Under the pieces are notes generated by a model, which made no database searches, was not told the DNA's origin, and worked only from the letters and a program-made list of their open reading frames with translations. A stretch of 64,000 nt of DNA from Streptomyces showdoensis (GTDB lineage: Bacteria > Actinomycetota > Actinomycetes > Streptomycetales > Streptomycetaceae), in the NCBI RefSeq assembly GCF_039535475.1, contig NZ_BAAAXG010000012.1, positions 248,001 through 312,000 of the forward strand, in the 5' to 3' direction. Of the stretch, positions 12,878 to 28,575 are shown one piece after another; position 1 is the first letter of the stretch, and the number at the start of each line of letters is the position of its first letter. A program made the translations under genes and the position numbers.

Positions 12878-12943
12878 GGATCCTCCTCGTGCTCGCGCCC
12901 GCAGGGGTGCCTGCGGCTCCAGCTCTTACGGTAGCGGCCCCAC

Positions 12944-12956: not shown

Positions 12957-13041
12957 TCACTCGGACGGGCGCCTCCACCGCCGCCACGGGGTGCGAATCG
13001 GCCCATCCTGGTGGGACGGACGACGGAGGAGAGGGCCGGCG

Positions 13042-13658: not shown

Positions 13659-13699
13659 GCACGTCCCCGGGCGGGCGCGTGTCCCGCCGCGGCCCGCCG

Positions 13700-14032
13700 T
13701 CAGCGCTTGTAGTTGATCTTCATCGTGTCCATGTCGGTGACCTTGGACCGCAGGTCGCGGAAGCCGTGCCCGAGCTCCTTCAACGCGCCCTCCACCCGGT
13801 CCTCGGCGATCGCCCCGGCCATCTCGTCGCCGTCCGCCGCCTCGGAGACGACGACCAGGCGGTACGAGAAGTGCTTCAGGTTCCGGTCGTAGGCGAGCGA
13901 GCCCTCCTCGGTGAACCGCATCGCCGACATGCCGTGCTCCTCGGCCTCCGCGAGCAGCCGCTCGCGGCTCTCCTCGGTCAGCCCGTCGAACGTCCCGCGC
14001 ACGATCACCCGGTAGGTGTGCTGCGTGCCCAT
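13700..14032 (-). CDS. hypothetical protein, possibly DUF6204 family
   Basis: 110 soluble residues beginning MGTQHTYRVIVRGTFDGL. The ATG at 14032 follows GAGGAGG with good spacing and is preferred over an in-frame codon at 14059. The alternating strand/helix pattern (HTYRVIVRG, then RERLLAEAEEH, then FSYRLVVVSEA) suggests a small ferredoxin-like or dimeric alpha-beta barrel fold. The N-terminal sequence resembles Streptomyces proteins filed under DUF6204, from memory. No function is known. It is divergent from the DUF5107 gene. Confidence 0.7.
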   Translation of the reverse strand: MGTQHTYRVIVRGTFDGLTEESRERLLAEAEEHGMSAMRFTEEGSLAYDRNLKHFSYRLVVVSEAADGDEMAGAIAEDRVEGALKELGHGFRDLRSKVTDMDTMKINYKR

Positions 14033-14163
14033 GCCCTGCCTCCTCGGTAAAGAAACCACCCTACGGCGGCGCGTGTACGCCGCAACGGAATTTCCCGGCG
14101 CCCCGGGCGGGGCCGTTGTCCACCCTCTGGCCAGCGGTGGTTCCGGCGTGTTCCATGGTCGTC

Positions 14164-16104
14164 ATGACGACCGTACGACGTGCCGTACTCACCCTGTCCG
14201 CGGCGCCGTTGGGCCCGGACAACCCCCTCCCGGCCCTGCACCTCCTCGACGGGGCCGCCGCCCCCGCGGTCGACGAGCGGGCCGCGCTTCCGCGCGACAT
14301 GGCCCGGCAGCTCGGGCACGCCCCGCTGCGCACCCTGCTGCCCACCCGGGTCAGGGACGGCTACGGGCGCGCGCGGACGCCCGTGGACCTCGACGCGATC
14401 GTGATCGAGAACGAGCGGCTGCGGGTCACCGTGCTGCCCGGCCTCGGCGGACGCGTCCAGTCCCTCTTCGACAAGGCGGCAGGGCGCGAACTGCTCTACC
14501 GCAACCCGGTGTTCCAGCCCGCGGCGTTCGCGCTGAACGGCGCCTGGTTCTCCGGCGGCATCGAGTGGAACATCGGCGCCCGCGGACACACCACGCTCTC
14601 CTGCGCCCCGCTGCACGCGGCGGTCGTTCCCGCGCCCGACGGAGGCGAGATGCTCCGGCTGTGGGAGTGGGAGCCGCTGCGCGACCTTCCCTTCCAGGTC
14701 GACCTGTGGCTGCCGGCCGACGGCGCGCACCTGCGGGCCGCGGTCCGGATCCGCAACCCGCACGAGCGGGCCGTCCCCACCTACTGGTGGTCCAACACGG
14801 CCGTCCCCGAGGACCGCAGGATCCTCGCCCCCGCCGAGCTGGCCTGGCAGTACGGCTACGAGCGCGCCCTGCGCCGGGTGCCGGTGCCCGCCGCCCCGGA
14901 CGGCCCCGACCACACGTACCCCCTGCGGAGCACCCATGCCGCCGACTACTTCTACGAGGTGCCGGACGGGCGGCGCCGCTGGATCGCCGCGCTCGGCGAG
15001 GACGGCACCGGCCTCGTGCAGACCTCCACGGACGTGCTGCGCGGCCGCAAGCTCTTCCTGTGGGGCTCGGGGCGTGGCGGGCGCCGCTGGCAGGAATGGC
15101 TGACCGAGCCCGGCACCCCCGGGTACGCCGAGATCCAGGCCGGACTCGCCCGCACCCAGCTGGAGCACCCCACCCTGGAGCCGGAGACCGAGGTCTCCTG
15201 GATGGAGGTGTACGGGCCGCTGGCCGCGGACCCGGCGGCCGTCCACGGCGCGGACTGGGCCGCGGCCACCGGTTGCGTCGAGGAGGCCCTCGGCCGGGTG
15301 CTGCCCCGGGAGGAGGTCGAGGCCGCGTACGCGTTGTGGCGGGAGCGGTCCGCCGACGCCGAGCCCGGTGCGGCCCTGGCCGCCGGTTCGGGCTGGGGCG
15401 CGCTCGAAGTCCTGCGCGGCGGCTACGCGCTGCCCGGAACGCCGTTCGCCGAGGACCAGCTCGGCGCGGAGCAGCGGCCCTGGGTGCACCTGCTGCGCAC
15501 GGGCGCCCTGCCCGAGGCGGAGGAGGGGGCCGTCGGGCGCACGCCCGTGTCCGGGGCCTGGCGGGACATGCTGGAGACCGCCCCGGCCGACCCGGCCACC
15601 GAATACCACCTCGGCGTCGCCCAGTGGGCCGCCGGCGACCTCGCCCAGGCGGTACGGAGCTGGGAGCGCGGCCTGAAGAACGCCTCCGTGCGCTGGCCGC
15701 TGCTGTACTGCCTGGCCGTCGCCGACCGCGAGGGCGGCCACCCGCGCCGCGCGGCCGAGCGGTACGCGGAGGCCTTCGAGGAGCAGTGCGGGGGCGACCC
15801 GCTCGTCACCGCGGCCCTCGGGCGCGAGACGGCGACCGTGCTCCTGGAGACCGGCGCCGCCGCGCAGGCCCGCACCGTCCTGGAGCGGCTGCCCGAAGAG
15901 GTGCGGGCCCGTGGGGCGTTCCGCTTCCTGGAGGCGCGGCTGCTGCTCGCCGAGGGGCGCAAGGACGAAGCCCGCGCCGTGTTCGACGCGGGCTTCGAGG
16001 TGGCGGACCTGCGCGAGGGGGCCGAGGTCCTGGGCGAGGTCTGGGCGCGGATCACCGATGAACCACTCCCGGACGCCTACGAGTTCAGGATGCGGCCCAG
16101 CTGA
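14164..16104 (+). CDS. DUF5107 domain protein with TPR repeats
   Basis: 646 residues. Residues ~60-330 form a beta-rich domain resembling the galactose-mutarotase-like fold (NERLRVTVLPGLGGRVQSLFDK, then NPVFQP and GIEWNIG), which is how DUF5107 proteins look. From ~460 onward the sequence is made of helical repeats typical of TPRs (YHLGVAQWAAGDLAQAVRSWERGL, then LAEGRKDEARAVFDAGF). No signal peptide. Members are suspected of acting on or sensing carbohydrates, without firm evidence. The ATG at 14164 is taken because homologous sequence starts there (MTTVRRAVLTL); ATG 14155 is an alternative. No neighbour gives a clear functional clue. Confidence 0.82.
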   Translation: MTTVRRAVLTLSAAPLGPDNPLPALHLLDGAAAPAVDERAALPRDMARQLGHAPLRTLLPTRVRDGYGRARTPVDLDAIVIENERLRVTVLPGLGGRVQSLFDKAAGRELLYRNPVFQPAAFALNGAWFSGGIEWNIGARGHTTLSCAPLHAAVVPAPDGGEMLRLWEWEPLRDLPFQVDLWLPADGAHLRAAVRIRNPHERAVPTYWWSNTAVPEDRRILAPAELAWQYGYERALRRVPVPAAPDGPDHTYPLRSTHAADYFYEVPDGRRRWIAALGEDGTGLVQTSTDVLRGRKLFLWGSGRGGRRWQEWLTEPGTPGYAEIQAGLARTQLEHPTLEPETEVSWMEVYGPLAADPAAVHGADWAAATGCVEEALGRVLPREEVEAAYALWRERSADAEPGAALAAGSGWGALEVLRGGYALPGTPFAEDQLGAEQRPWVHLLRTGALPEAEEGAVGRTPVSGAWRDMLETAPADPATEYHLGVAQWAAGDLAQAVRSWERGLKNASVRWPLLYCLAVADREGGHPRRAAERYAEAFEEQCGGDPLVTAALGRETATVLLETGAAAQARTVLERLPEEVRARGAFRFLEARLLLAEGRKDEARAVFDAGFEVADLREGAEVLGEVWARITDEPLPDAYEFRMRPS

Positions 16105-16113
16105 GGCCCGGGT

Positions 16114-16142
16114 GCGGGGGCGCGGGCCGGCCGGGCCCCCGC
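16114..16142. terminator. candidate terminator between convergent genes
   Basis: GCGGGGGC (16114-16121) pairs with GCCCCCGC (16135-16142) around a GC-rich loop that contains GGCCGGCC. It lies between the stops of the DUF5107 gene and the convergent methyltransferase gene. There is no T-run, as is common for Streptomyces terminators. Confidence 0.4.
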
Positions 16143-16149
16143 CCGGCGG

Positions 16150-16986
16150 TCAGGCGCGGCACAGGATCTCGCCGTGCGGGACCATGAACCAGGCGTCCTC
16201 CTGGGCGGCCCAGGTGCGCCACGCCCCGGCGATGCCGTCCAGCTCCTCGCGGGTCGCGTGGCCGCCGTCGACGGCCAGCGCGGCGTACACCGACTGCGTG
16301 GTGCGGTCCGCCCACAGGCCGCTCCACCAGGCCCGCTCCTCGGGCCGGGCGAAACACCAGGTGCCGGCGGTGGCGGCGATGTCGGTGAAGCCGGCCCGGC
16401 GGGCCCAGGACAGCAGCCGCCGGCCCGCGTCCGGCTCGCCGCCGTTGGCCCGGGCCACCTGCCGGTACAGCGCGGACCAGCGGTCCAGGCCCGGGTTCTC
16501 GGGGAACCAGGTGAACGCCCCGTAGTCGCTGTCCCGGGCGGCGACCACGCCGCCCGGCCGGCACACCCGCCGCATCTCCCGCAGCGCCCGGACCGGGTCG
16601 CCGACGTGCTGCAGCACCTGGTGGGCGTGGACGATGTCGAAGGAGTCGTCGGGGAAGTCCAGGGCGTGGACGTCGGCGACCGCGAACTCCACGTTCTCCA
16701 CGCCCCGTTCGGCCGCCGCTGCGCGCGCCTTCTCCAGCACGTCCTCCGCCGCGTCCACCGCCGTCACCCGGCCCGGCGCGACCCGCGCCGCCAGGTCCGC
16801 GGTGATCGTGCCCGGCCCGCACCCGACGTCCAGGACCTCCAGCCCGGCCCGCAGTTCGGGGATCAGATAGGCGGCCGAGTTCTCCACCGTGCGCCAGCTG
16901 TGCGACCGCAGCACCGACTCGTGGTGGCCGTGGGTGTAGACGGCGGTCTCGTGCTGCGGCGCGGTCTGCTCGTCGGCGTGCGTCAT
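16150..16986 (-). CDS. class I SAM-dependent methyltransferase
   Basis: 278 residues. The SAM-binding motif LEVLDVGCGPGTITADLA lies near residue 55, followed by TAVDAAEDVL (acidic ribose contact) and the post-motifs FDIVHAHQVLQHVGDPVRALREMRRVCRPGG. This is the Methyltransf_11/UbiE layout, which methylates small molecules; the substrate cannot be told. The ATG at 16986 follows GAGGGAG at good spacing and starts MTHADEQ; a longer frame to 17034 lacks a ribosome site. Its C-terminal ~100 residues are less typical and may bind the acceptor. Confidence 0.87.
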   Translation of the reverse strand: MTHADEQTAPQHETAVYTHGHHESVLRSHSWRTVENSAAYLIPELRAGLEVLDVGCGPGTITADLAARVAPGRVTAVDAAEDVLEKARAAAAERGVENVEFAVADVHALDFPDDSFDIVHAHQVLQHVGDPVRALREMRRVCRPGGVVAARDSDYGAFTWFPENPGLDRWSALYRQVARANGGEPDAGRRLLSWARRAGFTDIAATAGTWCFARPEERAWWSGLWADRTTQSVYAALAVDGGHATREELDGIAGAWRTWAAQEDAWFMVPHGEILCRA

Positions 16987-17071
16987 GGCCGGACTCCCTC
17001 GTGTGAGTTGGTGCGGCAACGGTACGCCGATCACTCACATCCTGAGACCCCATTCTCGGAATGTGGACACG

Positions 17072-17683
17072 TCAGCTGAACGGCCCCGTCCTGTAACGGA
17101 GTTCGGTGAGCATGCGGCCACCCGTCTCCTCCGTGACGGACGTGCCGTCCGGACGCCACCCGGCCGCCCCGTAGAAGGCCCGCGCCCGGGGGTTCCCCTC
17201 CAGCACCCAGAGTCCCGCCGCACGGAAACCGGCCGCCGCCATCGCGGCGACCGTCGCGGCCAGCAGGTCCCGCCCCACGCCCCGGCCCCAGGCCTCCGGC
17301 ACGGCGTACAGGGCCGAGAGCTCGGCCGTCACCGACGCGTCCCACTCCCCGTCGGGCCACGGGCGGAAGCAGGAGAACGCCACCGCGCCGTCCTCCTCGG
17401 CCAGCAGCACGGTCGGCGCGCCGGGCGCCGACAGCCGGTCCCGCCACACCTCCGTCCGCTCCCCGACGTCGAGGGAGTCCAGATACGCGTCTGGCACGAG
17501 GCCGCGGTAGGCGGCGCGCCACGAACGGACGTGCACGGAGGCGACGGCGGCGGCGTCGGAGGGACCCGCCGCACGGATCGCGCGCACCGAACGGACCGCA
17601 CGGACCGCACGGACCGCACGGACCGCACGGACCGCACGGACCGCACGGACCGCACGGACTTCGGGGATCTCGGGGATCGGCAT
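17072..17683 (-). CDS. GNAT acetyltransferase with an (Ala-Val-Arg)n N-terminal repeat
   Basis: 203 residues. From about residue 36 the sequence is a normal GNAT domain that transfers acetyl from acetyl-Co[22 protein letters not shown], the acetyl-CoA loop [12 protein letters not shown], and [20 protein letters not shown]. The first ~35 residues are unusual: after MPIPEIPEV come seven Arg-Ala-Val units, then [10 protein letters not shown]. They are encoded by the 9-bp minisatellite at 17591-17653. The repeat keeps the frame whatever its copy number, so the tail length may vary between strains. Such a basic tail could be unstructured. Substrate unknown. Confidence 0.82.
17591..17653. repeat. 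9-bp minisatellite (ACGGACCGC)x7
   Basis: Seven perfect copies of ACGGACCGC followed by a partial copy (ACGGACT). The array lies inside the 5' coding end of the GNAT gene and encodes its Arg-Ala-Val repeat on the minus strand. It shares the GGTCCG/CGGACC core with the array at 22875-22982. Confidence 0.95.
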
Positions 17684-17747
17684 GGGCGCATTCTGGAGAC
17701 CCGGCGGGGCGCACGGCCAGCCGGTTTCCCCGCGCGAGGTGCCCGGC

Positions 17748-18794
17748 CTACGCCTCCCCGCACGCCTCCCCGCCCTCCGTCGGCCCCGTCAGGCCCGCGC
17801 GCTCGGCGAGGGCGCCGCCCTGGAAGCGGCTCTCGGCGCCCAGCTCTTCGAGCAGTTCGGCGATGTGGCGGCGGCAGGTGCGCAGGGACATGCCCATGCG
17901 GCGGGCGATCACCTCGTCCTTGGCGCCCTCGGCGAGCAGCCCCACCAGGGCGCGGCGCAGGCTCGGGCCGACGTCCTTGTAGGCGGCCTCGCTGGTGCCG
18001 TGGAAGGGGATGGCGCCGGACCAGTGCTGCTCGAAGACCCGGCACAGGTACGCCACCACGTCGGGGTCCCGGACCAGGACCGCGCCCTCGCCCGTCCCGC
18101 CGTCGGCGCGGCGCGGCAGGAAGGCCACGGAGCGGTCGAACACCACGGCCCGGTCCGGCAGTTCGGCCGCCGTACGGTACTCGGCACCGGCCTCGGTGAG
18201 CCGCTCCACGTACCCCTGCGTGGAGAGGCTGGCACGCGCCGAGTGCTGATAGAGGGTGCGCATCCGCACGCCCCGGTCCAGCATCGCCAGGTCCCGGTCG
18301 ATCGCGGCGCCCAGCCGCCCGGGCGCCCGCCCGCCACCCGGCTGGATGCTGAACACCTCCTCGCGGCAGCGCGCCGACTCCTCCGTGAGCATCGCGGACG
18401 CGGAGGCCATGTCGGGCAGCAGGTCGACGCCCTGCCGGCGGGCCTGTTCGCGCCGCGCGGCCCGGTACTGCGGCATCAGCGCGTGCAGTTCGTCGCGGAC
18501 GGCCTGGGCGTGCGCGGCGGCCTGGGCGAGCTCCGCCTCCAGGGGGCCGACGACCTCCGCCGCCGCCGCGTCCGGGCTCACCGGTATCAGCTCCTCGGGC
18601 CTTCCGGGGGCCGGGCGCAGCAGCCGCAGCCGCAGCAGCGTGCGGGACGCCGCCTCCACCTCCTCCTGGCTCAGGCCGAGCGCGGGCACGACGTCGGGCG
18701 GCCAGCGGGTCAGGCTGCCGCGCGCGAGCACGTACTCGAAGACGGCGACGGCCCGTGCGTCCAGTCGTGGCATTTCATCGAGATGTGTCCCCAT
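17748..18794 (-). CDS. LuxR-type HTH regulator with N-terminal winged-helix-like domain
   Basis: 348 residues. The C-terminal 60 residues form a LuxR/FixJ-type DNA-binding domain: LVGLLAEGAKDEVIARRMGM followed by SLRTCRRHIAELLEELGA. The N-terminus (AVAVFEYVLARGSLTRWP, then LGLSQEEVEAASRTLLRLRLL) resembles the TrmB/MarR winged helix found in many Streptomyces regulators of this length. The middle (~100-270) may sense a ligand. It is divergent from the 54-residue secreted peptide gene and the LanL-like synthetase gene, with a 206-base intergenic region between, so it is the likely pathway regulator of that locus. Confidence 0.85.
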   Translation of the reverse strand: MGTHLDEMPRLDARAVAVFEYVLARGSLTRWPPDVVPALGLSQEEVEAASRTLLRLRLLRPAPGRPEELIPVSPDAAAAEVVGPLEAELAQAAAHAQAVRDELHALMPQYRAARREQARRQGVDLLPDMASASAMLTEESARCREEVFSIQPGGGRAPGRLGAAIDRDLAMLDRGVRMRTLYQHSARASLSTQGYVERLTEAGAEYRTAAELPDRAVVFDRSVAFLPRRADGGTGEGAVLVRDPDVVAYLCRVFEQHWSGAIPFHGTSEAAYKDVGPSLRRALVGLLAEGAKDEVIARRMGMSLRTCRRHIAELLEELGAESRFQGGALAERAGLTGPTEGGEACGEA

Positions 18795-18942
18795 CGGGAT
18801 GCTTTCCCCCCGCTTTGCGGCCCTGCTACTTCCGTGCCATGCAGGGTATTGCCAGGTCGCGGCCCTGGACCAAGCGGGCTCGCCGGGATGGACTGAGGAG
18901 GTCCGACGGGGTCAAACCCCGCCAGGGCGACATCCGGTGCGA

Positions 18943-18959
18943 ACCCGTCGAACACGGGT
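18943..18959. promoter_or_regulatory. inverted repeat in the regulator/peptide intergenic region
   Basis: ACCCGT-CGAAC-ACGGGT, six-base arms around a 5-base centre, 42 bases before the small peptide gene. It could be the operator of the divergent LuxR-type regulator or a small leader hairpin. Confidence 0.35.
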
Positions 18960-19000
18960 CATGCGCGCCACCCGACGCGTCCCGAACCAGGAGCCTTCGC

Positions 19001-19165
19001 ATGTCCGCAGCCGTCCGCTGTCTCCTCGCCCTCACCGTCCTGCTCACCGGCGCCGCCGCCGCGACCGCGGGGCAGCCGGGGGACGGGACGCTCACGGTGC
19101 GCACGGTCGCCGCCGACCCGATGGACACCAGCTGGGGCGACCACTACGTCAAGCCGCAGCAGTAG
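19001..19165 (+). CDS. small secreted peptide (54 aa) with MDTSWG motif
   Basis: A 54-residue gene. Residues 1-24 make a clear signal peptide (basic start, VRCLLALTVLLTG core, AAAATAG cleavage zone). The predicted mature part is about 30 residues, with VRTVAADPMDTSWGDHYVKPQQ at its C-terminus. It has no Cys after cleavage, so it is not itself a lanthipeptide core. It lies 206 bases from the divergent LuxR-type regulator and 15 bases before the LanL-like synthetase, so it probably shares the synthetase's transcript. Small secreted peptides ending in similar Asp-Thr-Ser-Trp-Gly motifs next to LuxR-type regulators occur in Streptomyces as I recall, but I cannot name a characterised one. A signalling role is inference. 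Confidence 0.65.
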   Translation: MSAAVRCLLALTVLLTGAAAATAGQPGDGTLTVRTVAADPMDTSWGDHYVKPQQ

Positions 19166-19180
19166 GACGGGACGCAGACC

Positions 19181-22018
19181 GTGTCGACCTCCCCCTCCGC
19201 GGCCCCCGCGTCCGCCGCCTCCGCGCTCACCACCGGCCCCGGCCCCCGCCGGGCCCGCCCCGAGCACGCCGCCGACCTCGCGCTCCTGCCCGATCTGGTG
19301 CGCGCCGCCGTCGCCCGCTCCGGCGCCTCCGGCTGGTCCGTCGAACCCGGCGCGTTCTGGTGCCACGTCGTGCCCGCCGACGCGGTCCGCCGGGCACAGG
19401 GCTGGAAGCTGCACGTCTCCGCCACCCCGCTGTCCGCCCCGCTGGTCCTCGCCCGCGCCGCCGAGGTGCTGATCGCCCACGGAGCGGCCTTCAAGTTCGC
19501 CGGCAGCCCCGCCCGGGTCGCCGCCCTGGTCTCCGGACGCTCCGCGCGCGGCGGGGGCGGCAAGTTCCTCACCGTCTACCCGGCCGACGACGACCGCTTC
19601 CGACTGCTCGCCGAGGAGCTGCACCGGGCCACCGCCGGCCTGCCCGGGCCCGCCGTCCTCTCCGACCGCCGCTACCGGCCCGACAGCCAGGTCTCCTACC
19701 GGTACGGCGTGTTCACCGGCGTACGGGAACTGACCGAGGACGGCGGCTTCGCGGCCCGGCTCACCGACCCCGAGGGCCGCCCGGTCGCCGACGAGCGCAA
19801 CGCCTGGTTCAGCCCGCCCGCCTGGGCCGGCGACCCCTTCCCGGACCGGCCCGCCGCCGCGCCGCGCAGCACGGCCGCCGCCCGGCCCGTCCTCCTCGCC
19901 GACCGGTACGTCGTCAGCGGCGCCATCCAGCACTCCAACAAGGGCGGGGTGTTCCGCGCCGAGGACACCCGCACCGGCGCCCAGGTCGTCGTCAAACAGG
20001 CCCGCCCCCACGTCGGCGCCGGGCTCGAAGGCCTCGACGTACGGGACCTGCTGCGCCGCGAGGCGAGCCTCCTGGCCCGCTTCGCCACGGCCGCCCACGA
20101 CGTCGTCCCGCAGCCGGTCGAGGTGTTCGAGCAGCAGGGCAGCGTCTTCCTCGCCACCGAGTCCGTACCCGGCGCGACCCTGCGCCGCACGGTCGCCGAG
20201 CGCCTCGCCGAGGACGGCGCCGCCTGCCCCGACGAACGCACCGCCGGCTCGCTGGTCTGGCAGCTGATCGAGCTGGTCGCCACCGCGCACGGACTCGGCG
20301 TCACCCTCCACGACTTCAACCCCAACAACGTCATGGTCACCCCCGACGGGCGGCTGCTCCTCATCGACCTGGAGATGGCCGCCGCCCCCGGCGAACGCTG
20401 GGTGCTCGGCGCCACCCCCGGCTACACCGCGCCCGAACTGCGCGCCGCCGACCAGGTGGCCCCCGCCTTCCCGCCGGCCGTCGACCTGTACGCCCTGGGC
20501 GCGACCGTCCTGCACGCGCTCAGCGGCGCCGACCCGCTGTTCGCCCCCGACCGGCCGGTCGCCGACGCCCGCCCCGACGAGGAGCGGCTGGCCGGACTCG
20601 TCGCGCTGCTGGCCCGCGACCACCCGCTCGTCCGCCGCTTCGCCCCGCTCGTACGGGGGCTGATGCGGGACGCCGCCGAGGACCGGTGGAGCCTGGAGCG
20701 GGCCCGGACCTTCGTCACCGGGCTCCGCGGGGACGGGGGACCGGCCCCCGCGTCCGTAACCGCGCCCGCGGCCACCCGCGAGGCGGAACCGCCGGACCCG
20801 TCGCCGACCCGCACCCGGCTGCTGCGCGACGGCCTCGCCCACCTGCTGGCCACCCTGCGCCCGGACGACCCCGAACGGCTCTGGTCCTCCGACTCGTTCG
20901 GCGAGAACTGCGACCCGGTCGCCGTGCAGCACGGCTCGGCCGGCGGGGTCGCCGTCCTGGCCCGGGCACTGCGGCACGCGGACGCCCTGGACACCGCCGG
21001 AGCGGCCCCGGACCGGACGGCGCTGCGCGAGGGCCTGGAGACCGCGGCCCGGTGGACCGCCGACCGGGTGGACACCCTGCCCGGACACCTGCCCGGCCTG
21101 CACTTCGGCCGCTCCGGCACCGCCTGGGCGCTGCTCGACGCCGCCCACGCGCTGGACGATCCCGACCTGGCCGGGCGCGCCGCCGAACTCGCGCTCACGC
21201 TGCCCGTCCGCTGGCCCAACCCCGACGTCTGCCACGGCGCCGCCGGATCCGGCCTGGCCCAGCTGCACTTCTGGCGCGCCACCTCCGACCCCCGCTTCCT
21301 CGACCGGGCGGCCCAGGCCGCCGAAGGGCTCCTGGAGGCGGGGCGGCGCACCCCCGAGGGGCTGTTCTGGCCGGTGCCGGAGGACTTCGGGTCCGCGCTC
21401 GCCGGAGCCTGGCACTACGGCTTCGCGCACGGCGTCGCCGGAGCGGGCACCTTCCTGCTGCTCGCCGCCGGGGCGACGGGGGAGGAGCGCTACCGCGCGG
21501 CGGCCGTCGAGGCCGGGGCCACCCTGGCCGCGGCCGCCCGGGGCGGAGCGGCCGGTGTCCTGTGGCCCGTGGACCGGGCCCGCCACCTGTCGAACTCCCC
21601 GGAACTGGCCCGGCACTGGTGCAGCGGCTCGTCCGGCGTCGGCACCTTCCTGGTGCGGCTCTGGGCCTCCGAGGGCGGCGCCGACGAGGGGCTGCTCGCC
21701 CTGGTCGACGGCGCGGCCCGCGCGGTCCGGGCGGGCCGGGTCACCGACTCGCCCGCCACCTGCCACGGCCTCGCCGGCAACGCCGAGTTCCTCCTCGACG
21801 CCGCCGGGCTCACCGGCGACGCCCGTCACCGCGCCGACGCGGAACTCCTCGTCGAGCACCTGGCGGCGCAGGCCGTCCTGCGCGACGGCCGGCTGCTCGT
21901 GCCCGACGAGAACCGCAGGACCGTGCTCGCCGAGTACGCCACCGGCCTCGCCGGCAGCCTCTCGCTCCTGCTGCGGCTGCACTGCGGCGGGCCCCGCGCC
22001 TGGCTGCCCGAGGGCTGA
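19181..22018 (+). CDS. class III/IV lanthionine synthetase (LanL-like)
   Basis: 945 residues in the order of the fused lanthipeptide synthetases: an N-terminal lyase-like region (~30-220), a Ser/Thr kinase-like domain (~240-510) and a C-terminal LanC cyclase-like domain (~545-945). In the kinase part, K272 (VVVKQ), D378 and N383 (LHDFNPNN) and D396 (DLE in place of DFG) fit an active phosphotransferase. In the LanC part the three zinc ligands are present: C814 (HWCSG), C861 and H862 (TCHG). Class IV enzymes keep these and class III enzymes lack them, so class IV is favoured. Such enzymes dehydrate Ser/Thr and add Cys thiols to form lanthionine. The GTG start at 19181 follows GGACGGGA. A precursor-like gene lies 100 bases downstream. 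Confidence 0.88.
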   Translation: MSTSPSAAPASAASALTTGPGPRRARPEHAADLALLPDLVRAAVARSGASGWSVEPGAFWCHVVPADAVRRAQGWKLHVSATPLSAPLVLARAAEVLIAHGAAFKFAGSPARVAALVSGRSARGGGGKFLTVYPADDDRFRLLAEELHRATAGLPGPAVLSDRRYRPDSQVSYRYGVFTGVRELTEDGGFAARLTDPEGRPVADERNAWFSPPAWAGDPFPDRPAAAPRSTAAARPVLLADRYVVSGAIQHSNKGGVFRAEDTRTGAQVVVKQARPHVGAGLEGLDVRDLLRREASLLARFATAAHDVVPQPVEVFEQQGSVFLATESVPGATLRRTVAERLAEDGAACPDERTAGSLVWQLIELVATAHGLGVTLHDFNPNNVMVTPDGRLLLIDLEMAAAPGERWVLGATPGYTAPELRAADQVAPAFPPAVDLYALGATVLHALSGADPLFAPDRPVADARPDEERLAGLVALLARDHPLVRRFAPLVRGLMRDAAEDRWSLERARTFVTGLRGDGGPAPASVTAPAATREAEPPDPSPTRTRLLRDGLAHLLATLRPDDPERLWSSDSFGENCDPVAVQHGSAGGVAVLARALRHADALDTAGAAPDRTALREGLETAARWTADRVDTLPGHLPGLHFGRSGTAWALLDAAHALDDPDLAGRAAELALTLPVRWPNPDVCHGAAGSGLAQLHFWRATSDPRFLDRAAQAAEGLLEAGRRTPEGLFWPVPEDFGSALAGAWHYGFAHGVAGAGTFLLLAAGATGEERYRAAAVEAGATLAAAARGGAAGVLWPVDRARHLSNSPELARHWCSGSSGVGTFLVRLWASEGGADEGLLALVDGAARAVRAGRVTDSPATCHGLAGNAEFLLDAAGLTGDARHRADAELLVEHLAAQAVLRDGRLLVPDENRRTVLAEYATGLAGSLSLLLRLHCGGPRAWLPEG

Positions 22019-22117
22019 ACGGCCCCACCCCCCCCATGGACTTCCGTCGGCCGCCGGCCGGCGGACGCCGGTCCCGCACGGGCCGGCACCCACCCGAGAA
22101 GAGCGAAGGAGAACGCC

Positions 22118-22243
22118 ATGATGGAGCACGACATCGACGCCCTGCAGGTGCTGCCCCAGGAGGTCCGCACCGAGGACGCCCGCGGTGAGGAGCACGCCGC
22201 CGCGCTCATCACCGCCTGCCGCTGGCTGACCAGCGGCTGCTGA
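22118..22243 (+). CDS. candidate class IV lanthipeptide precursor (41 aa)
   Basis: A 41-residue gene with a good ribosome site (GAAGGAG, 7 bases before ATG 22118; a second ATG follows at 22121). The N-terminal part, MMEHDIDALQVLPQE, is acidic and helical with a Leu/Ile pattern like the leaders of class III/IV precursors. The C-terminal part runs ALITACRWLTSGC: Thr32, Thr38 and Ser39 can be dehydrated and Cys34 and Cys41 can close up to two rings. The leader end is unknown; the Gly23 or Ala27-29 region is plausible. It lies directly after the LanL-like gene and is followed by a strong terminator. No dedicated protease or exporter is visible nearby. Confidence 0.75.
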   Translation: MMEHDIDALQVLPQEVRTEDARGEEHAAALITACRWLTSGC

Positions 22244-22255
22244 CCCACAGCCGAG

Positions 22256-22285
22256 AGCGGGACCCCTTCCCCGTGGGGTCCCGCT
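22256..22285 (+). terminator. terminator after the lanthipeptide precursor gene
   Basis: A perfect 11-bp stem, AGCGGGACCCC with GGGGTCCCGCT, around an 8-base loop, 12 bases after the precursor stop and followed by TTGGCGTTT. It ends the synthetase-precursor transcript and lies ahead of the convergent GNAT gene. Confidence 0.8.
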
Positions 22286-22330
22286 TGGCGTTTCGGGGGT
22301 CGTGCCGGGCCCGAACCCCGTCTTCCGGGC

Positions 22331-22834
22331 CTACGCCGCCCACTCCCAGCGCCGCTCCCCGTCCTCGAACGCCTCCGTCGGAGCCAGGCCCGCCGCCGTG
22401 GCCACCGCCGCCGAGGCGTGGTGGTCGGGGTGGACGTGCGCCAGGATCACCGGGGTGCCGAGCGCGCGCAGCCAGTCCGCCAGCGCGGCGGCCGCCTCCT
22501 TGGCGAGCCCGAGGCCCTGCCAGGCGGTCCCGGTCACCCAGGCGATCTCGGCCGCCCCGGCGGTGACGGTGGCCTGGACGGTGCCGACGGCGGCACCCGT
22601 GTCCCGCAGCCGCAGGACCCAGTTGCACCACGCCGTCCCCGGATCCGCCGGGCCGGCCAGCATCCGGGCGTAGCGGGCCCTGAGCTCCGGCTCGGGCAGC
22701 GGGGCGCCGCCGATGAAGACGTGCAGCGCCGGATCGGCCAGCGCCCCGGCCATCTCGGGGGCGTGGTCGAGCCGCAGCGGCTCCAGGTCCAGGCGCGCGG
22801 TGTGCAGGGGGACGGCGGTGACGACAGGGATCAT
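22331..22834 (-). CDS. GNAT acetyltransferase (RimJ/RimL type)
   Basis: 167 residues. LHTARLDLEPLRLDHAPEMAGAL at the N-terminus, the strand VGTVQATV, the acetyl-CoA pocket WVTGTAWQGLGLAKEAAAALADWL and the C-terminal HVHPDHHASAAVATAAGL match the GNAT fold in its Acetyltransf_3 (RimJ/RimL-like) form, which acetylates amines or protein N-termini. The acceptor is unknown. It is convergent with the lanthipeptide locus, with the terminator between them. A 108-bp minisatellite begins 41 bases upstream of its start. Confidence 0.82.
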   Translation of the reverse strand: MIPVVTAVPLHTARLDLEPLRLDHAPEMAGALADPALHVFIGGAPLPEPELRARYARMLAGPADPGTAWCNWVLRLRDTGAAVGTVQATVTAGAAEIAWVTGTAWQGLGLAKEAAAALADWLRALGTPVILAHVHPDHHASAAVATAAGLAPTEAFEDGERRWEWAA

Positions 22835-22874
22835 GGGACCAGTCTCGCCCGTGACCGCTCCGGCTGCTTCGGCC

Positions 22875-22982
22875 GGTCCGTTCGGTCCGGTAGGTCCGGT
22901 CAGTCCGGTCGGTCCGGTCGGTTCGGCTGGTCCGGTCGGACCGTTTGGTCCGACCAGTCCGTTCGGTCCGTTCGGTCCGGTC
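22875..22982. repeat. degenerate 9-bp minisatellite, 12 units (GGTCCGGTC-like)
   Basis: Twelve tandem 9-mers around GGTCCG[GT]TC, with single-base differences between units. The array lies between the divergent GNAT gene (start 22834) and the sulfite-oxidase-like gene (start 23106). On the plus strand it is open and would read Gly-Pro-Val/Phe, but no ribosome site supports a gene. Confidence 0.9.
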
Positions 22983-23105
22983 GCCGATCCGGACGGCCGA
23001 CCTGACGAATGTTCATATGACGGCTCCGTGAACGGCCCGCCCCGGCCCCCGGCCCGCCCCTAGGGTGTGCCGGACCCCGCCCCCGACGTGCCGAGGAGAC
23101 CCTCC

Positions 23106-24281
23106 GTGCCCGCCCGCCGCACCCTGCTGAAGGCCCTCGCCGGCGCCCCCGCCCTCCCCCTCCTGGGGAACGCGCCCGCCGCCGCCGCGCCCGCCCCCGC
23201 CCCCGGCATCGTCAAGCCGACACCGTCCGCGTACTTCACGCTGCGCGGCACCAACGCCGAGGCCCGGTACGAGACCTTCGCCGACACCGGGCCGCTCACC
23301 CCGGTCGACCGCTTCTTCGTCCGCAACCACACCACCACGCCCGTCCTCGACGCCGCCGCCTGGAGCCTCACCGTCTGGGGCGACGGACTGCACGGCCGCA
23401 CCCCCGTCCGCTTCGGCTACGGGCAGCTGCGCGACCTGCCCGCCGTCACCCGCACCGCCCTGGTGGAGTGCGCCGGCAACGGCCGCAGCCTCTACGCCAC
23501 CCAGCAGGGCGAGACGGTCACCGGCACGCCCTGGACCCTCGGCGCGATCGGAGCCGCCCGCTGGCGCGGCGCCCGCCTCTCCGACGTGCTGCGGCGCGCC
23601 GGGATCGCCGCCGACGCCGTCGACGTCCAGCCCCGCGGCCTCGACGACCCGTACGTCACCGGCGGCGTCGACCTCGGCCGGGTCCGCCGCCCGCTGCCCG
23701 TCGCCAAGGCCCTCGACGACGTCATCCTCGCGTACGAGATGAACGGCGAGCCCCTCCCGTACGACCACGGGTACCCGGTCCGGCTGATCGTCCCCTCCTG
23801 GATCGGCATCGCCTCCATCAAGTGGCTCGGCGACATCGAGGTCTCGCGCTCCCCGCTCGCCTCGCCCTGGTCCACCGACTACTACCGCCTGTTCGGCGCC
23901 GCGCATCCGCCCGGCGGCAGCGCCCCGCTCACCCGCCAGACCCTCAAGAGCGCCTACGAACTGCCCTTCGGCGCCACCCTGGAGACCCACCGGACGCACC
24001 GGCTCACCGGCCGCGCCTGGTCCGCCCACGCGCCCGTGCGCCGCGTCGACGTCTCCACCGACGGCGGTGCCCACTGGCGGCCCGCCCGGCTGCTCGACGC
24101 GCCCCGGCGGGCCGGCTGGGTCCGCTGGGCCACCACCTGGCGCCCGCACGGCACCGGGCCCGCCACCCTGCTCTCCCGGGTCACCGACGCGGCCGGCAAC
24201 GTCCAGCCGGAGCGGGCCGTCCACAACACCCAGGGGTACCTCTTCGACGCGATCGTCCGGCACCCCGTCACCCTCGCCTGA
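23106..24281 (+). CDS. Tat-exported sulfite-oxidase-like molybdopterin enzyme
   Basis: 391 residues. The N-terminus PARRTLLKALAG is a twin-arginine signal followed by a hydrophobic stretch and an Ala/Pro cleavage zone, so it is exported folded. The oxidoreductase molybdopterin-binding domain is clear: FFVRNH, then LVECAGNGR carrying the Cys that coordinates molybdenum, then RGLDDPYVTGGVDLGR and MNGEPLPYDHGYPVRL. A C-terminal Ig-like dimerisation domain follows (TLETHRTHRLTGRAW, then VRRVDVSTDGGAHWRPA). Family members oxidise sulfite or reduce sulfoxides. The GTG at 23106 has GAGGAG 7 bases upstream and opens directly on the Tat signal; the earlier GTG at 23067 is weaker. Confidence 0.88.
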   Translation: MPARRTLLKALAGAPALPLLGNAPAAAAPAPAPGIVKPTPSAYFTLRGTNAEARYETFADTGPLTPVDRFFVRNHTTTPVLDAAAWSLTVWGDGLHGRTPVRFGYGQLRDLPAVTRTALVECAGNGRSLYATQQGETVTGTPWTLGAIGAARWRGARLSDVLRRAGIAADAVDVQPRGLDDPYVTGGVDLGRVRRPLPVAKALDDVILAYEMNGEPLPYDHGYPVRLIVPSWIGIASIKWLGDIEVSRSPLASPWSTDYYRLFGAAHPPGGSAPLTRQTLKSAYELPFGATLETHRTHRLTGRAWSAHAPVRRVDVSTDGGAHWRPARLLDAPRRAGWVRWATTWRPHGTGPATLLSRVTDAAGNVQPERAVHNTQGYLFDAIVRHPVTLA

Positions 24282-24314
24282 GCCGGCCGGACCCCACCCG
24301 GCCCGCCCGAGCGG

Positions 24315-24326
24315 CGGGATATCCCG
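24315..24326. promoter_or_regulatory. 12-bp palindrome CGGGATATCCCG
   Basis: A perfect palindrome upstream of the aminotransferase-like gene, followed 8 bases later by GTATAAA, a possible -10 box. It may be an operator at that promoter. Confidence 0.35.
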
Positions 24327-24432
24327 AACCTCCGTATAAAGGCACTGGGGTCCCGTTCGCGCGGTCAGGGCCGTGTGCGCGTGCCGTTCGGGTGCCCCGG
24401 CACAGTCCCAGGAGGTCCGGGAGGTCAGGGCG

Positions 24433-25669
24433 ATGCGGCAGACAGCTCCGGAGGGCCGCGGGCCGGTGCGCTTCGGACCGCCCGCTCCGGAGTCCGGCCT
24501 CCCCGTGCTGCCCGGTCTCGCCGCCCTCCTCGCCGCCGCGGCCGGCCGGGCCGCGCCCGAACCGCCCGGCGGCGGCCCGGTCCTGCGCGGGGCCGCCGCC
24601 GGCTACTGGTGGCGCCGCGGCCTGCGCACCCACGCCGAGGACGTCGTCGCCGCCCCCGGCGCCCCGCCGCTGCTGCTCGCCCTCATCGCCGCCCACGGCG
24701 GCGACCTCCTCCTGCCGCGGCCCTGCCCCGCCTGGTGGACCCCGCAGGCCCGGCTGCTCGGCCGGCCCGCCTACCACGTGCCCACGCCCGCCGAGTGCGG
24801 GGGCGTGCCCGACCCGTACGCCCTCCTGGAGACCGTGCGACGGGTCCGCGCCGAGGGCGGCGACCCCCGGCTCCTCCTCCTCTCCGTCGCCGACGACCCC
24901 ACCGCCACCGTCGCCCCGCCCGAACTCGTCCGCGAGGCCTGCGAGGCGGCCGTCGCCGAGGGGCTGCACATCATCAGCGACGAGACCTGGCGCGACACCG
25001 TGCACCGCCCCGAGGACACGGTGCTGCTCAGCCCCGCCGAGATGTGCCCCGAGGACGTCACGGTCCTCAGCGACCTGTCCGGCGCCCTCACCCCCGCCGG
25101 CTGGCCCTGCGCCGTCGCCCGCTTCCCGCCCACCGCCCCCACCCGCACGGACCGGTACGCCGACCGCAGGGCCCGCACCCTCGACATCCTCACCGCGCTC
25201 GGCGCCCTCGTGGCCGGACCGGTCGCCCCGGCCGCCGCCCACGCCCTCGACGAACCCGAGGACGTCGTCGTGCGGATCCGGACCACGGCCGCCCTGCACG
25301 GGCGGATCGCCGCGGCCGCCCACCGGGCCGTCCGCGCCGCCGGGGCGTTCGCCCGGCCCCCGCAGGCGGGCCGCCACCTCTACGCCGACCTGGGCCCGCT
25401 GCGCGCCGGGCTCGCCGCCCGCGGCGTCACCGACTCCCTGGAGCTGGAGAACCACCTGACGGAGCGGCTCGGCACCCCCCGTCCCCGGCGGCCACCGCTT
25501 CGGCGACGAACTCGGCGCGCTCCGCGTCCGGTTCGACACCGCGGCCTTCCTGGGGGACACGGAGGAGGAGCGGACCGAGGCACTCGCCTCCGCCCGCCCC
25601 GAGGAATCGCCGCACGTGGCCCGCGCGTTGAGCACGTTCGGGGAAGCGCTGGACGAACTGGCCCGCTAG
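24433..25669 (+). CDS. PLP-dependent aminotransferase-like protein (apparent frameshift)
   Basis: About 411 residues once one base is removed. The fold-type I aminotransferase layout is visible: LRTHAEDVVAAPGAPPLLLALI, the Asp of IISDETWRDTVH that would contact the pyridine nitrogen, and the C-terminal HLYADLGPLRAGL. The segment that normally carries the PLP lysine reads VLSDLSGALTPAGW, with no Lys. The frame breaks at a run of six C (25475-25480). Deleting one C gives LGTPVPGGHRFGDELGALRV and a natural end at TAG 25667-25669. Without that fix the frame runs into the next gene as a false 884-residue fusion. ATG 24433 follows GGAGGTC. Most likely a sequence error; activity is doubtful because of the missing Lys. 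Confidence 0.75.
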
Positions 25670-25725
25670 TGGAGGCCGTCGAGGACGGCCGGCACCGGAT
25701 GGAAGGAAAGACGGAGGTCGCAGCG

Positions 25726-27027
25726 ATGACGGAACAGACCGCCCGGCCACCCCGGGCCCCGCACTCCGACCGCACCCCCCGTACCGCCGGAGCCGCCGGG
25801 TCCGCCGGGTCCGCCGGGTCCGCCGGGTCTTCCCGGGCCGCTGGGGCCGCCCGCGCAGGCCAGGTCGCTGAAGCCGACCGGTCCTCCCAGCTCGCCCAGC
25901 CGGCCGGAGCCTCCCAGCTCGCCCAGCCGGCCGGAGCGTCCCAGGCCTCCCAGCCGGCCGGAGCGTCCCAGGCCTCCCAGCCGGCCGGAGCGTCCCAGGC
26001 CGCCCAGCCCGCCGGAGCCTCCCCGGCCTCCCCACCAACCCCGCCCGCCCCGCACCCCGCTCCCGTGCTCCAGCCCCTCGGCCGGGTGCGTCTCGACTGG
26101 CCGCGGTCCTTCGCCGACCGGCTCACCGCGCCCCTGCCCGGGGTCCGTGCCCTGGCCCGGCTGGCCCGCGAGGGCGCCGTCCGCCCCGGGCCCGCGGGGC
26201 TGCGGGACGTCCCGCAGCTGCCCTTCGCGCCCGGACCGCTGCCCGAGGCCGGGCCGGGCACCGTCGCCGTCACCTGGGCCGGGCACGCCAGCTGGGTGGT
26301 CCGGATCGGCGGCCTGACCGTGCTGACCGACCCCGTCTGGTCGCGCCGGATCCTCGGCACCACGGCCCGGCTCACGCCCGTCGGGGTCCGCTGGGAGGAC
26401 CTGCCCCCGGTCGACGCCGTCGTCATCAGCCACAACCACTTCGACCACCTCGACGCCCCCACCCTCAAACGGCTCCCGCGCCACACCCCCGTGTTCGTGC
26501 CCGCCGGGCTCGGCCGCTGGTTCACCCGGCGCCGGTTCGACCGCGTCACCGAGCTGGACTGGTGGGAGGCGGCCGAACTCGGCGGCGTGCGCTTCGAGTT
26601 CGTCCCCGCCCACCACTGGTCCAAGCGCACCCTCCTGGACACCTGCCGCTCCCTGTGGGGCGGCTGGGTGATCGGCGAACGCGAGGGGCGGCGGGTCTAC
26701 TTCGCCGGGGACACCGGCTACGGCCACTGGTTCGCCGAGATCGGCCGCCGCCACCCGGGCATCGACCTCGCCCTGCTGCCGATCGGCGCCTACGACCCGC
26801 GCTGGTGGCTCGGCGACGTCCACACCGACCCCGAGGAGGCCGTGCGGGCCTTCCAGGACCTCGGTGCGCGGCGGATGGCCCCCATGCACTGGGCGACCTT
26901 CGTCCTCTCCTCCGAACCCGTCCTCGAACCGCTCACCCGCGTGCGCGCCGCCTGGGCGCGGGCCGGCCTGCCCCGCGAGGACCTGTGGGACCTGCCGGTC
27001 GGGGCGTCCCGGGCGGTGGGCCCGTAG
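25726..27027 (+). CDS. MBL-fold hydrolase (NAPE-PLD/UlaG-like) with repetitive N-terminus
   Basis: 433 residues. From ~110 onward this is a metallo-beta-lactamase-fold phosphodiesterase of the NAPE-PLD-like group: WAGHASWVVRIGGLTVLTDPVWS, metal motif SHNHFDHLD, PAHHWSKR, FAGDTGYG, and MHWATF. Two metal ions would be bound. The first ~105 residues are low-complexity: four Ala-Gly-Ser units, then five 9-residue units of SQ[LA][AS]QPAGA type, then a Pro/Ala run; they are encoded by tandem repeats. ATG 25726 follows GGAGGTC. Substrate unknown; relatives cleave phospholipid-like phosphodiesters. Confidence 0.87.
   Translation: MTEQTARPPRAPHSDRTPRTAGAAGSAGSAGSAGSSRAAGAARAGQVAEADRSSQLAQPAGASQLAQPAGASQASQPAGASQASQPAGASQAAQPAGASPASPPTPPAPHPAPVLQPLGRVRLDWPRSFADRLTAPLPGVRALARLAREGAVRPGPAGLRDVPQLPFAPGPLPEAGPGTVAVTWAGHASWVVRIGGLTVLTDPVWSRRILGTTARLTPVGVRWEDLPPVDAVVISHNHFDHLDAPTLKRLPRHTPVFVPAGLGRWFTRRRFDRVTELDWWEAAELGGVRFEFVPAHHWSKRTLLDTCRSLWGGWVIGEREGRRVYFAGDTGYGHWFAEIGRRHPGIDLALLPIGAYDPRWWLGDVHTDPEEAVRAFQDLGARRMAPMHWATFVLSSEPVLEPLTRVRAAWARAGLPREDLWDLPVGASRAVGP
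25795..25830. repeat. 9-bp tandem repeat (GCCGGGTCC)x4
   Basis: Four tandem copies of GCCGGGTCC, the last ending in T. They encode Ala-Gly-Ser units in the N-terminal tail of the MBL-fold hydrolase. Confidence 0.9.
25885..26019. repeat. 27-bp tandem repeat, 5 units, in the MBL hydrolase gene
   Basis: Five in-frame 27-bp units, each encoding SQ[LA][AS]QPAGA. Units 1-2 and 3-4 are nearly identical pairs, which suggests recent expansion. The period keeps the reading frame at any copy number. Confidence 0.92.
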
Positions 27028-27030
27028 GCG

Positions 27031-27125
27031 CTCGGCCCGAGGCGCCCGGTCCGGAGCGTCCGGTGGGCGTCCGGCCCGAGGCGTCCGGTCCCGGGCGTCC
27101 GGTCCCCGGGCGTCCGGCCCAGGGT
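27031..27125. repeat. GCGTCCGG-rich imperfect repeat, intergenic
   Basis: At least five copies of GCGTCCGG at irregular 10-17 base spacing between the convergent MBL hydrolase and DedA genes. No clear terminator hairpin was found here; the GC-rich repeat may serve that role. Confidence 0.6.
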
Positions 27126-27157
27126 GCCAGGACCTCCAAGGGGGCCCGGCCTCCGGA

Positions 27158-27799
27158 CTAGGGCGCGCCCGGCCGGCCGGACCGTCCCCGCAGCCGCCGC
27201 CACAGGGCGGGCGCCGCGCCGATCAGCACCGTGAGGCCGACCGCCGCCACCACGCCCTGCCACGGTTCCGGGAAGAGCGAGCCGCCCAGGATGCCGATCA
27301 GCTGGTACGTCGCCGCCCAGGCCAGGCAGGCCGGCAGGTCGCCGCGGGCGAAGCGGCGCAGCGGCATCCCGGCGAGCAGACAGGCCAGCATCACCGGGAT
27401 CCGGCCCGCCGGGACCAGCCGGGAGAGCACGAGCACCGGGACCTGGTGGGTGTCCAGCCGTTCCTGCGCCTGGGCCAGTCGCTCCGGGGTGACCCGGCCG
27501 CGCAGCGCCGCGAGCCAGCGCGAGCCGTTGCGGGAGCGGACCCCGCGCCGGCCGAGCCAGTACAGGGCCAGGTCGCCCAGGAACGCGGCGGAGGCCGACA
27601 CCACGAAGACGTACAGCAGCGCCAGCGGCGCCGTCTGGTGGAAGGCCACCACCGCCGCCGAGCTCACGATCGCCCCGGTCGGCACCACCGGCAGCAGCGC
27701 GCCGAGCGCCACGAGCAGGAACAGCGAGGGGTAGCCGACGGCCTGTTGCGTCGACTCCGGCGGCAGCTCCCGCACCGCCGTCACGATCCGGTCGATCAC
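27158..27799 (-). CDS. DedA family integral membrane protein
   Basis: 213 residues with four to five hydrophobic helices. The DedA/SNARE-associated (VTT) pattern is visible: PSLFLLVALGALLPVVPTGAIVSSAAVV, a GDLALYWLGRRGV segment, and the conserved SRLVPAGRIPVMLACLLAGM with its basic/Pro motif. DedA proteins act as lipid-carrier flippases, for example for undecaprenyl phosphate or phosphatidylethanolamine, and support membrane homeostasis. The GTG start at 27799 overlaps the stop of the upstream MBL-fold gene as GTGA, so the two are co-translated. Confidence 0.85.
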   Translation of the reverse strand: MIDRIVTAVRELPPESTQQAVGYPSLFLLVALGALLPVVPTGAIVSSAAVVAFHQTAPLALLYVFVVSASAAFLGDLALYWLGRRGVRSRNGSRWLAALRGRVTPERLAQAQERLDTHQVPVLVLSRLVPAGRIPVMLACLLAGMPLRRFARGDLPACLAWAATYQLIGILGGSLFPEPWQGVVAAVGLTVLIGAAPALWRRLRGRSGRPGAP

Positions 27800-28575
27800 C
27801 GGGCGACCTCCGGCCGCACCCGCTCGCCGTGGCCCAACAGGTGTACCGCCACCTTCGGGGCGAGCCGGGCCGCGTGCCGGACGAACTCGTCGCCCGGCGC
27901 GTGGAACTCGTGGGGGCGGACCGCGTCCATGCCGATCGGCCAGTACGTGCCGTAGTGCACCGGCACCGCGGCGGCGGGCGACAGCGCGGCGAGCGCCTGC
28001 GCGGCACGGCCCGCGTCCAGGTGCCCGTGGCCGAGGTAGGGCCCCCAGCCGCCGACCGGGAGGAGCGCCACGTCCACCGGGCCGACGGCCTCCGCCATGT
28101 CGTCGAACAGGCCGGTGTCCCCGGCGAAGTAGGTCCGCGCCTCGCCCTCCACCACGTAGCCGAGCGCGGGGGAGCGGTGCGGTCCGAGCGGCAGCCGCCG
28201 CCCGTCGTGCAGGGCGGGGACGGCCCGTACGGTCACGCCCTCGACCTCCACCTCGTCGCCCGGCGCCACCTCGGTGAGCCGCAGGCCCCGCCCGTCGAGC
28301 CGGCGCAGGGCCGGGACGGCGCGCGGGGCGCCGGCCGGGACGAGCACGCGGGTGCCGGGGGCGAGCCGGGCCAGCGAGGGCAGGTGGAGGTGGTCGGCGT
28401 GCAGGTGCGACACGAGCACCGCCTCGGCGCGGGCGGCCTCGGGCGGGGGCAGCTCGCCGCGCCGGCGCCGCAGGTGCGCGAGGCGGCGCGCGAAGAGCGG
28501 GTCCGTCAGGAAGCGGACCCCGGAGTCCTCGACCGTGCACGTGGCATGACCCCACCAGGTGATCTCCACCGGCAC
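27796..28575 (-). CDS. MBL-fold metal-dependent hydrolase (UlaG-like)
   Basis: 259 residues. The compact MBL fold of the UlaG/YtnP-like group is clear: VEITWWGHATCTVEDSGVRFLTDP, metal motif SHLHADHLHLPSL, then VTVRAVPALHDGRR, TYFAGDTGLF and VPVHYGTYWPIGM. It binds two metals and hydrolyses phosphodiesters or lactone-like bonds. The substrate is unknown. GTG 28575 (VPVEITWW) is chosen because AAGGG lies close upstream; GTG 28569 is an alternative two codons later. It shares a transcript with DedA through the GTGA overlap, suggesting a joint envelope or lipid task. Confidence 0.85.
   Translation of the reverse strand: MPVEITWWGHATCTVEDSGVRFLTDPLFARRLAHLRRRRGELPPPEAARAEAVLVSHLHADHLHLPSLARLAPGTRVLVPAGAPRAVPALRRLDGRGLRLTEVAPGDEVEVEGVTVRAVPALHDGRRLPLGPHRSPALGYVVEGEARTYFAGDTGLFDDMAEAVGPVDVALLPVGGWGPYLGHGHLDAGRAAQALAALSPAAAVPVHYGTYWPIGMDAVRPHEFHAPGDEFVRHAARLAPKVAVHLLGHGERVRPEVAR

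Follow-up and report, generated by a model that had tools for sequence, protein, structure and literature searches.

INTRODUCTION

The LanL enzymes of class IV lanthipeptide synthesis combine three activities: a kinase phosphorylates Ser and Thr residues of a precursor peptide, a lyase eliminates the phosphate, and a cyclase closes the thioethers. For venezuelin, a related described system, it is reported that VenL dehydrates and cyclises VenA in vitro, that tandem mass spectrometry placed the rings at Cys34-Dhb39, Cys45-Dha49, Cys32-Dhb43 and Cys50-Dhb31, and that deletion of venL or venA in Streptomyces venezuelae had no detected effect (PMC2843593). Globisporin (SgbA, Streptomyces globisporus) and SflA are also class IV systems (PMC12328550, PMC9576775); by the count of a 2022 paper, two class IV lanthipeptides had been made before it and four with it (PMC9576775). 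Here we describe a locus in a 64,000-nt stretch of Streptomyces showdoensis (contig NZ_BAAAXG010000012.1, positions 248,001 to 312,000; the window), in which an initial annotation had proposed a class IV synthetase followed by a 41-residue precursor gene. The locus is very probably a gene set for a class IV lanthipeptide, in which the synthetase, LanL, modifies the 41-residue precursor, LanA, into a two-ring product.

RESULTS

The synthetase and its precursor

The two genes at the centre of the locus are as follows.

19181..22018, forward strand: class IV lanthionine synthetase LanL, 945 amino acids, GTG start (NF038150, Pfam domains, zinc-ligand motifs).
22118..22243, forward strand: precursor LanA, 41 amino acids, ALQxL family, predicted core end ...LITACRWLTSGC (NF038157, database matches, synteny).

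Both reading frames are as initially annotated, with 99 nt between them. LanL scored 998.9 bits on the class IV model NF038150 (curated cut-off 650) and 437.1 bits on the class III model, below the curated cut-off of 575, which leaves it outside LanKC. Pfam placed RamC_N, the lyase, at residues 42-230, Pkinase at 254-505 and LANC_like, the cyclase, at 583-941. Residues K272, D378 and N383 of the kinase are present. Cyclases of LanL enzymes carry Cys and Cys-His zinc ligands, which are absent in LanKC. The cyclase domain here contains a WCSG motif with C814 and a CHG motif with C861-H862, putative zinc ligands by comparison with NisC and the LANCL proteins. C861-H862 was placed by motif and order; chain 8car, presumably a class III enzyme, shows CCG where LanL shows CHG. 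The NCBIfam scores and the putative zinc-ligand motifs support LanL as class IV rather than class III.

The ATG-initiated translation of 22118-22243 is MMEHDIDALQVLPQEVRTEDARGEEHAAALITACRWLTSGC. Its ribosome site, GCGAAGGAGAACGCC-ATG, is real, and GAAGGAG is kept in 8 of 9 loci (the window and eight relatives; L016 has GATGGAG). A leader-like half is followed by ALITACRWLTSGC, with T32, T38 and S39 as the three Ser/Thr and C34 and C41 as the two Cys that were originally pointed out. On NF038157 (ALQxL class IV lanthipeptide), a model of 17 positions that matches only the leader of LanA (residues 2-15), the peptide scored 21.5 bits against a curated cut-off of 19. The window's genome contains no other ALQxL match at E ≤ 1. 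A database search with LanA gave 13 matches at E ≤ 1, seven of them named ALQxL family class IV lanthipeptide and one (P0007) apparently the window's own entry.

In order to compare the locus with its relatives, we used 78 LanL loci, from the best 80 of 100 relatives, each spanning about 5 kb either side of lanL. Eight of these (L015-L020, L022 and L089) are close to the window's locus. In all eight, a lanA 78-95% identical to that of the window lies directly after LanL, and a precursor peptide takes the same position in a further genome, G012. In two soil relatives, S. gardneri and S. litmocidini, the precursor shows slight differences from that of the window, all of them beyond the core. Synthetase homologues with no conserved small peptide at this position had been named in advance as evidence against a precursor; the close homologues do carry one. 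Nineteen distinct peptides were aligned, taken from 13 database entries, the window and seven from the loci after trimming to 41 residues and dropping duplicates. T32, C34, S39, G40 and C41 never change in the core, while T38 is replaced by F or M in 4 of 19 peptides and A, S and G all occur at position 33. HAAALIT is also invariant across the 19, with the caveat that two of the seven locus peptides were retrieved with a pattern requiring it. Among eight sequences (L089 excluded), the mean pN/pS was 0.31 for lanA, similar to LanL (0.32) and to the divergent regulator described below (0.31). We rejected exceptional conservation of LanA, because its mean pN of 0.061 was equalled by 17 of 91 41-codon stretches of LanL; the peptide is well conserved only. 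By its sequence, family score and position, the 41-residue peptide is very probably LanL's precursor, of the ALQxL class IV family, as the initial annotation had proposed.

Under a looser leader rule, 29 of the 78 LanL loci have a same-strand peptide no more than 1.5 kb downstream, at least two of them doubtful; the rule gave 43 matches over the remaining sequence of all loci on both strands. In a separate LanL group (L023, L036, L043, L053, L055, L059 and L091) the precursors are very short and end in CCSTF, or in CCCYE for L023; this is a different class IV core type.

The 3′ end of lanA is followed by one further feature.

22255..22286, forward strand: strong hairpin after lanA, 12-pair stem with one G-U pair.

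The surrounding region, 22244-22300, gave a folding energy of −35.8 kcal/mol (z −3.4). An 11-bp terminator had been assigned here. The hairpin is real, but that label is only partly supported, because no T-run lies 3′ of the stem and a scan of 17600-22400 found no consensus terminator. The hairpin is a candidate transcript end or stabiliser.

Proposed modification and ring topology

In the proposed pathway, LanL would bind the DIDALQVLP leader of the precursor, its kinase would phosphorylate Ser/Thr residues of the core, its lyase would eliminate the phosphate to leave dehydro-residues, and its zinc cyclase would add C34 and C41 onto two of these. Since two dehydratable residues and two Cys never change, we argue for two thioether rings, predicted to use T32 and S39, whereas T38 may or may not take part. 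The calculated [M+H]+ of the untagged 41-mer is 4566.16 before modification, 4530.14 after loss of two H2O and 4512.13 after loss of three; ALITACRWLTSGC less two H2O would give 1358.67. Analogy with venezuelin favours a nested topology, with T32-C41 around a reverse-direction C34-S39 ring. The C34-S39 pair matches Cys34-Dhb39 of venezuelin in direction and spacing, and T32-C41 would enclose it. Two three-residue rings, T32-C34 and S39-C41, are the alternative.

The leader would probably be removed near the invariant HAAAL by a protease encoded outside the set, and the lanthipeptide may be exported by a host system. Neither a protease nor an exporter had been seen in the initial annotation, and we found none among 11 frames with at least a weak Pfam match in 12128-31416, which is not a complete gene call. 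The window farther out does contain such genes. Peptidase-like frames of the M20, S9 (prolyl oligopeptidase, 5983-7968) and S15 types lie within 4047-10897 and, together with a major facilitator superfamily transporter at 103-2388, occupy the region 7-18 kb upstream of the set. The S9 frame is a conceivable leader protease; all three peptidase-like frames are outside the conserved unit. An amino-acid permease is found at 31483-32955.

A conserved unit of four genes

The locus had been described as synthetase and precursor. Both stand, and three upstream features also belong to it.

19001..19165, forward strand: companion peptide, 54 amino acids, signal-like N terminus, C-terminal DTSWGD (synteny, motif).
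17748..18794, reverse strand: divergent regulator, 348 amino acids (Pfam, AlphaFold, Foldseek, synteny).
18817..18858, no strand assigned: near-invariant intergenic element, 42 bp, candidate operator or promoter (column conservation).

The order divergent regulator, 52-63-residue peptide, lanL, lanA was found in all eight close loci. LanL is 77-80% identical in the seven with an intact frame. The regulator occupies the same place in all eight, at 79-88% identity in seven and as two pieces of 80 and 92% in L089. In that locus (L089/L134, S. diastatochromogenes ATCC 21481) the LanL and regulator frames are in pieces and the precursor is intact; the breaks are perhaps assembly indel errors or decay. 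Because of the broken frames, L089 was left out of the rate estimates and of the LanL tree, which kept 73 of 79 rows after the six with <780 residues, L089 among them, were dropped. The eight four-gene rows formed one clade with a Shimodaira-Hasegawa-like approximate likelihood ratio (SH-aLRT) support of 100. The genes flanking the set behaved differently. The GNAT genes on both sides were found in none of the eight close loci (about 5 kb each side), the methyltransferase was matched in L018 alone, at 35% and far downstream, and a sulfite-oxidase-like gene (68%) occurred in L015 alone, at another place. Since the flanking genes are not kept at these places, the unit ends at the regulator and lanA.

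We also searched 392 genomes of the genus with DNA patterns for HAAALITxC and DTSWGD. The first was present in 11 genomes, the window's included. The second was present in 13, namely the same 11 in the frame of the companion peptide and also G108 and G369, where it falls in different frames, 154 and 574 codons long, and was not counted. Reversed control patterns had no match in the 392 genomes. Four of the 11 positive genomes appear to coincide with L019, L020, L022 and L089 of the locus sample. In 10 of the 11, the precursor lies 2,998-3,293 bases from DTSWGD, as a lanL between them would need. In G168 (L132, L133) the regulator and companion peptide lie ∼505 kb from the last 162 LanL residues with lanA, with no runs of N; this split is either a rearrangement or an assembly fault. 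In G012 (L093/L129/L142) the stretch preceding DTSWGD is unlike that of the relatives, and no regulator could be found next to it. We rejected a sequencing adapter as the source of this stretch, since a search for the exact adapter end gave nothing. Of 101 genomes, 6 had been matched in an earlier protein search at E ≤ 1e-200, with a close group of the window's genome and G012 only (76% identity for G012 versus 48-49% for the rest). The conserved order and distribution indicate that the regulator, companion peptide, lanL and lanA, with the intergenic element, belong to one unit.

The companion peptide

The translation of 19001-19165 is MSAAVRCLLALTVLLTGAAAATAGQPGDGTLTVRTVAADPMDTSWGDHYVKPQQ. 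Each of the eight close loci has, upstream of LanL, an open frame of this kind (52-63 residues) that is preceded by a GGAG site, starts like a signal peptide and carries DTSWGD close to its C terminus. We applied a rule of a small frame with a ribosome site and a charged-then-hydrophobic start just before lanL, which was set after the positives were known and is not a trained signal-peptide predictor. It was positive in 8 of 8 close loci versus 0 of 66 other LanL loci, the remaining four beginning too near a contig end. Outside DTSWGD the peptide is weakly constrained (mean pN/pS 0.75 overall). Six database matches were obtained at E ≤ 1, its own entry included, and the five others are similarly built by eye. 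NCBIfam and Pfam scans gave no informative family match, and the open-licence literature held nothing relevant on the peptide or its motif sequences. A genome-wide family of DTSWG peptides was considered and rejected; a degenerate pattern had two matches in the window's genome, and the short frame that holds the second lacks a signal start.

The signal-like start suggests that the companion peptide is probably secreted. The window's copy has no Cys after position 7, and the putative mature part therefore cannot carry a thioether ring. The distance from its stop to the lanL start is 15 nt in the window and 2-70 nt, to the first candidate start, in nine relatives. At 19163-19181 the TAG stop and the GTG of lanL share a frame, five codons apart; the frames differ in the nine relatives.

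The divergent regulator and the intergenic element

The predicted architecture of the regulator consists of a TrmB-like N-terminal winged helix with a coiled coil, a phospholipase-D-like middle and a LuxR/GerE-like C-terminal helix-turn-helix. Pfam gave weak HTH/GerE and DUF6879 matches and no TrmB match. The AlphaFold model had a mean predicted local distance difference test (pLDDT) score of 78 and a predicted template modelling (pTM) score of 0.46, with low inter-domain confidence. The best Foldseek matches were to TrmBL2 (5bpi/5bpd; E 8.9e-13, template modelling (TM) score 0.34, root mean square deviation 17.6 over both domains) and to phospholipase-D-like domains, all at low TM scores. The same genome contains ten further matches to the regulator at E ≤ 1e-10, so this type of regulator is common.

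Within the 206-bp intergenic region, 35 of 42 columns of the element are invariant versus 54 of 164 elsewhere, counted over the same eight sequences as the pN/pS values. The element was recovered with 0-5 mismatches in 14 of 16 stretches; the other two, L133 and L142, lack the region. The genome, of 8.5 Mb, contains the inner 33 bp of the element a single time when ≤3 mismatches are allowed. Two simpler descriptions were rejected. A clean palindrome does not hold, as CCCTGC-N14-GCAGGG is broken in L015, L019, L139 and L132. Neither does a coding sequence, as the changes in L015, L019 and L139 alter residues and third positions are otherwise nearly fixed (by eye). Its conservation makes the element a good candidate for an operator or promoter. 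We propose that the companion peptide, lanL and lanA are probably one operon, under the TrmB-like regulator acting through the 42-bp element.

Other features of the window and genome

An Rfam scan of the window gave tRNA alone at gathering scores. A check for plasmid origin gave one match, at 2% coverage, whose annotation is a LuxR C-terminal-related regulator. Besides LanL of the set, the genome encodes further synthetases: L002 (G000:C6:2429-5119), of class IV, at 1217 bits on that model; L003, of class III, at 719.7 bits; one in two pieces (L004 and L008), both scoring best as class III; and a piece scoring best as class IV (L005), adjoined by L006 and L007.

DISCUSSION

We weighed other explanations of the same genes. 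That the synthetase is of class III, with a labionin-type product, is extremely improbable; the lyase-kinase-cyclase order is shared with LanKC and several solved relatives are named LanKC, but the class IV score far exceeds the class III score, which falls below its cut-off, and the WC and CH zinc-ligand motifs are present. It is also very improbable that the 41-codon frame is a chance open frame and the substrate of LanL is encoded elsewhere. High-GC DNA contains many chance frames, but this one has a conserved position, a ribosome site, purifying selection and a family model, and no other ALQxL match was found in the genome at E ≤ 1.

The role of the companion frame leaves more room. It may serve chiefly to couple translation to lanL, or as an upstream frame of that gene, its secreted character being incidental. 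The closeness of its stop to the lanL start in the window and nine relatives, together with weak overall constraint, agrees with this, but the distance and the reading frames vary among relatives, DTSWGD and the signal-like start are kept where the spacer is not, and the other five database proteins look alike in their build. We consider a coupler rather unlikely. An explanation we rate as unlikely accepts the 41-mer as substrate and holds that the important secreted product is the DTSWGD peptide, for example as an extracellular signal setting the regulator directly or through a receptor, with the lanthipeptide as output. The signal-like N terminus of this first gene before lanL fits, as do the invariance of DTSWGD in every close locus listed, its absence from every other LanL locus tested and, among 392 genomes, its occurrence in the very 11 that carry the precursor. 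Against it, no receptor or importer is seen in the set, most of the peptide is weakly constrained, and neither NCBIfam nor Pfam gives an informative match.

We therefore return to a LanL that makes a two-ring product from LanA. Several points weigh against it. The locus is known here from sequence alone, and the ring topology is an analogy. The margin of LanA on NF038157 is small (21.5 versus 19 bits), and the same model gave matches below the cut-off in 3 of 14 control genomes and none above it. C814 aligned to the HWC motif of human LANCL2 weakly (4.8 bits), and the DFG position of the kinase reads DLE. The regulator is linked to the element by position, and the short inverted repeat is lost in some relatives. 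Finally, no venezuelin was detected in the native producer (PMC2843593), and the present set may therefore also be silent. A more ambitious extension, which we think decidedly unlikely, is a peptide-signalled circuit in which the DTSWGD peptide, once secreted, would constitute a dedicated sensing loop together with the regulator and the 42-bp element and so switch on a nearly invariant two-ring lanthipeptide acting as a conserved signal or morphogen, not an antibiotic.

The chemistry and the precursor family are already known, and the family is less new because NCBI already names it. The open-licence literature was not found to describe the four-gene unit with its partner peptide and held nothing relevant under the family name. 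The companion peptide is the part of the set most worth an experiment, and the four-gene system is one in which the function of class IV lanthipeptides, and the trigger of their production, could be tested.

The regulator is predicted to resemble archaeal TrmB/TrmBL2 (5bpi, 5bpd, 3qph) in its winged helix and phospholipase-D-like fold, but it adds a C-terminal LuxR-like helix-turn-helix, and the comparison is limited by an identity of about 16% and the pTM of 0.46. LanA shares with the ALQxL family (NF038157) the DALQxLP leader motif and a gene directly after LanL; what differs is the conservation, within one Streptomyces clade, of the core ITxCxxxxSGC along with the entire gene set. With venezuelin, the set has in common a LanL with lyase, kinase and zinc cyclase, a cluster without a protease gene and a cross-linked region that runs, by prediction here, from the first Thr to the last Cys. 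Venezuelin is reported to have four Cys and transporter genes venTH, and no regulator (PMC2843593), whereas the set described here lacks a transporter, counts two Cys and includes both a divergent regulator and a companion peptide. This locus offers a short two-Cys class IV core conserved across species and, unlike the ven cluster, a regulator of its own and a partner peptide that is probably secreted.

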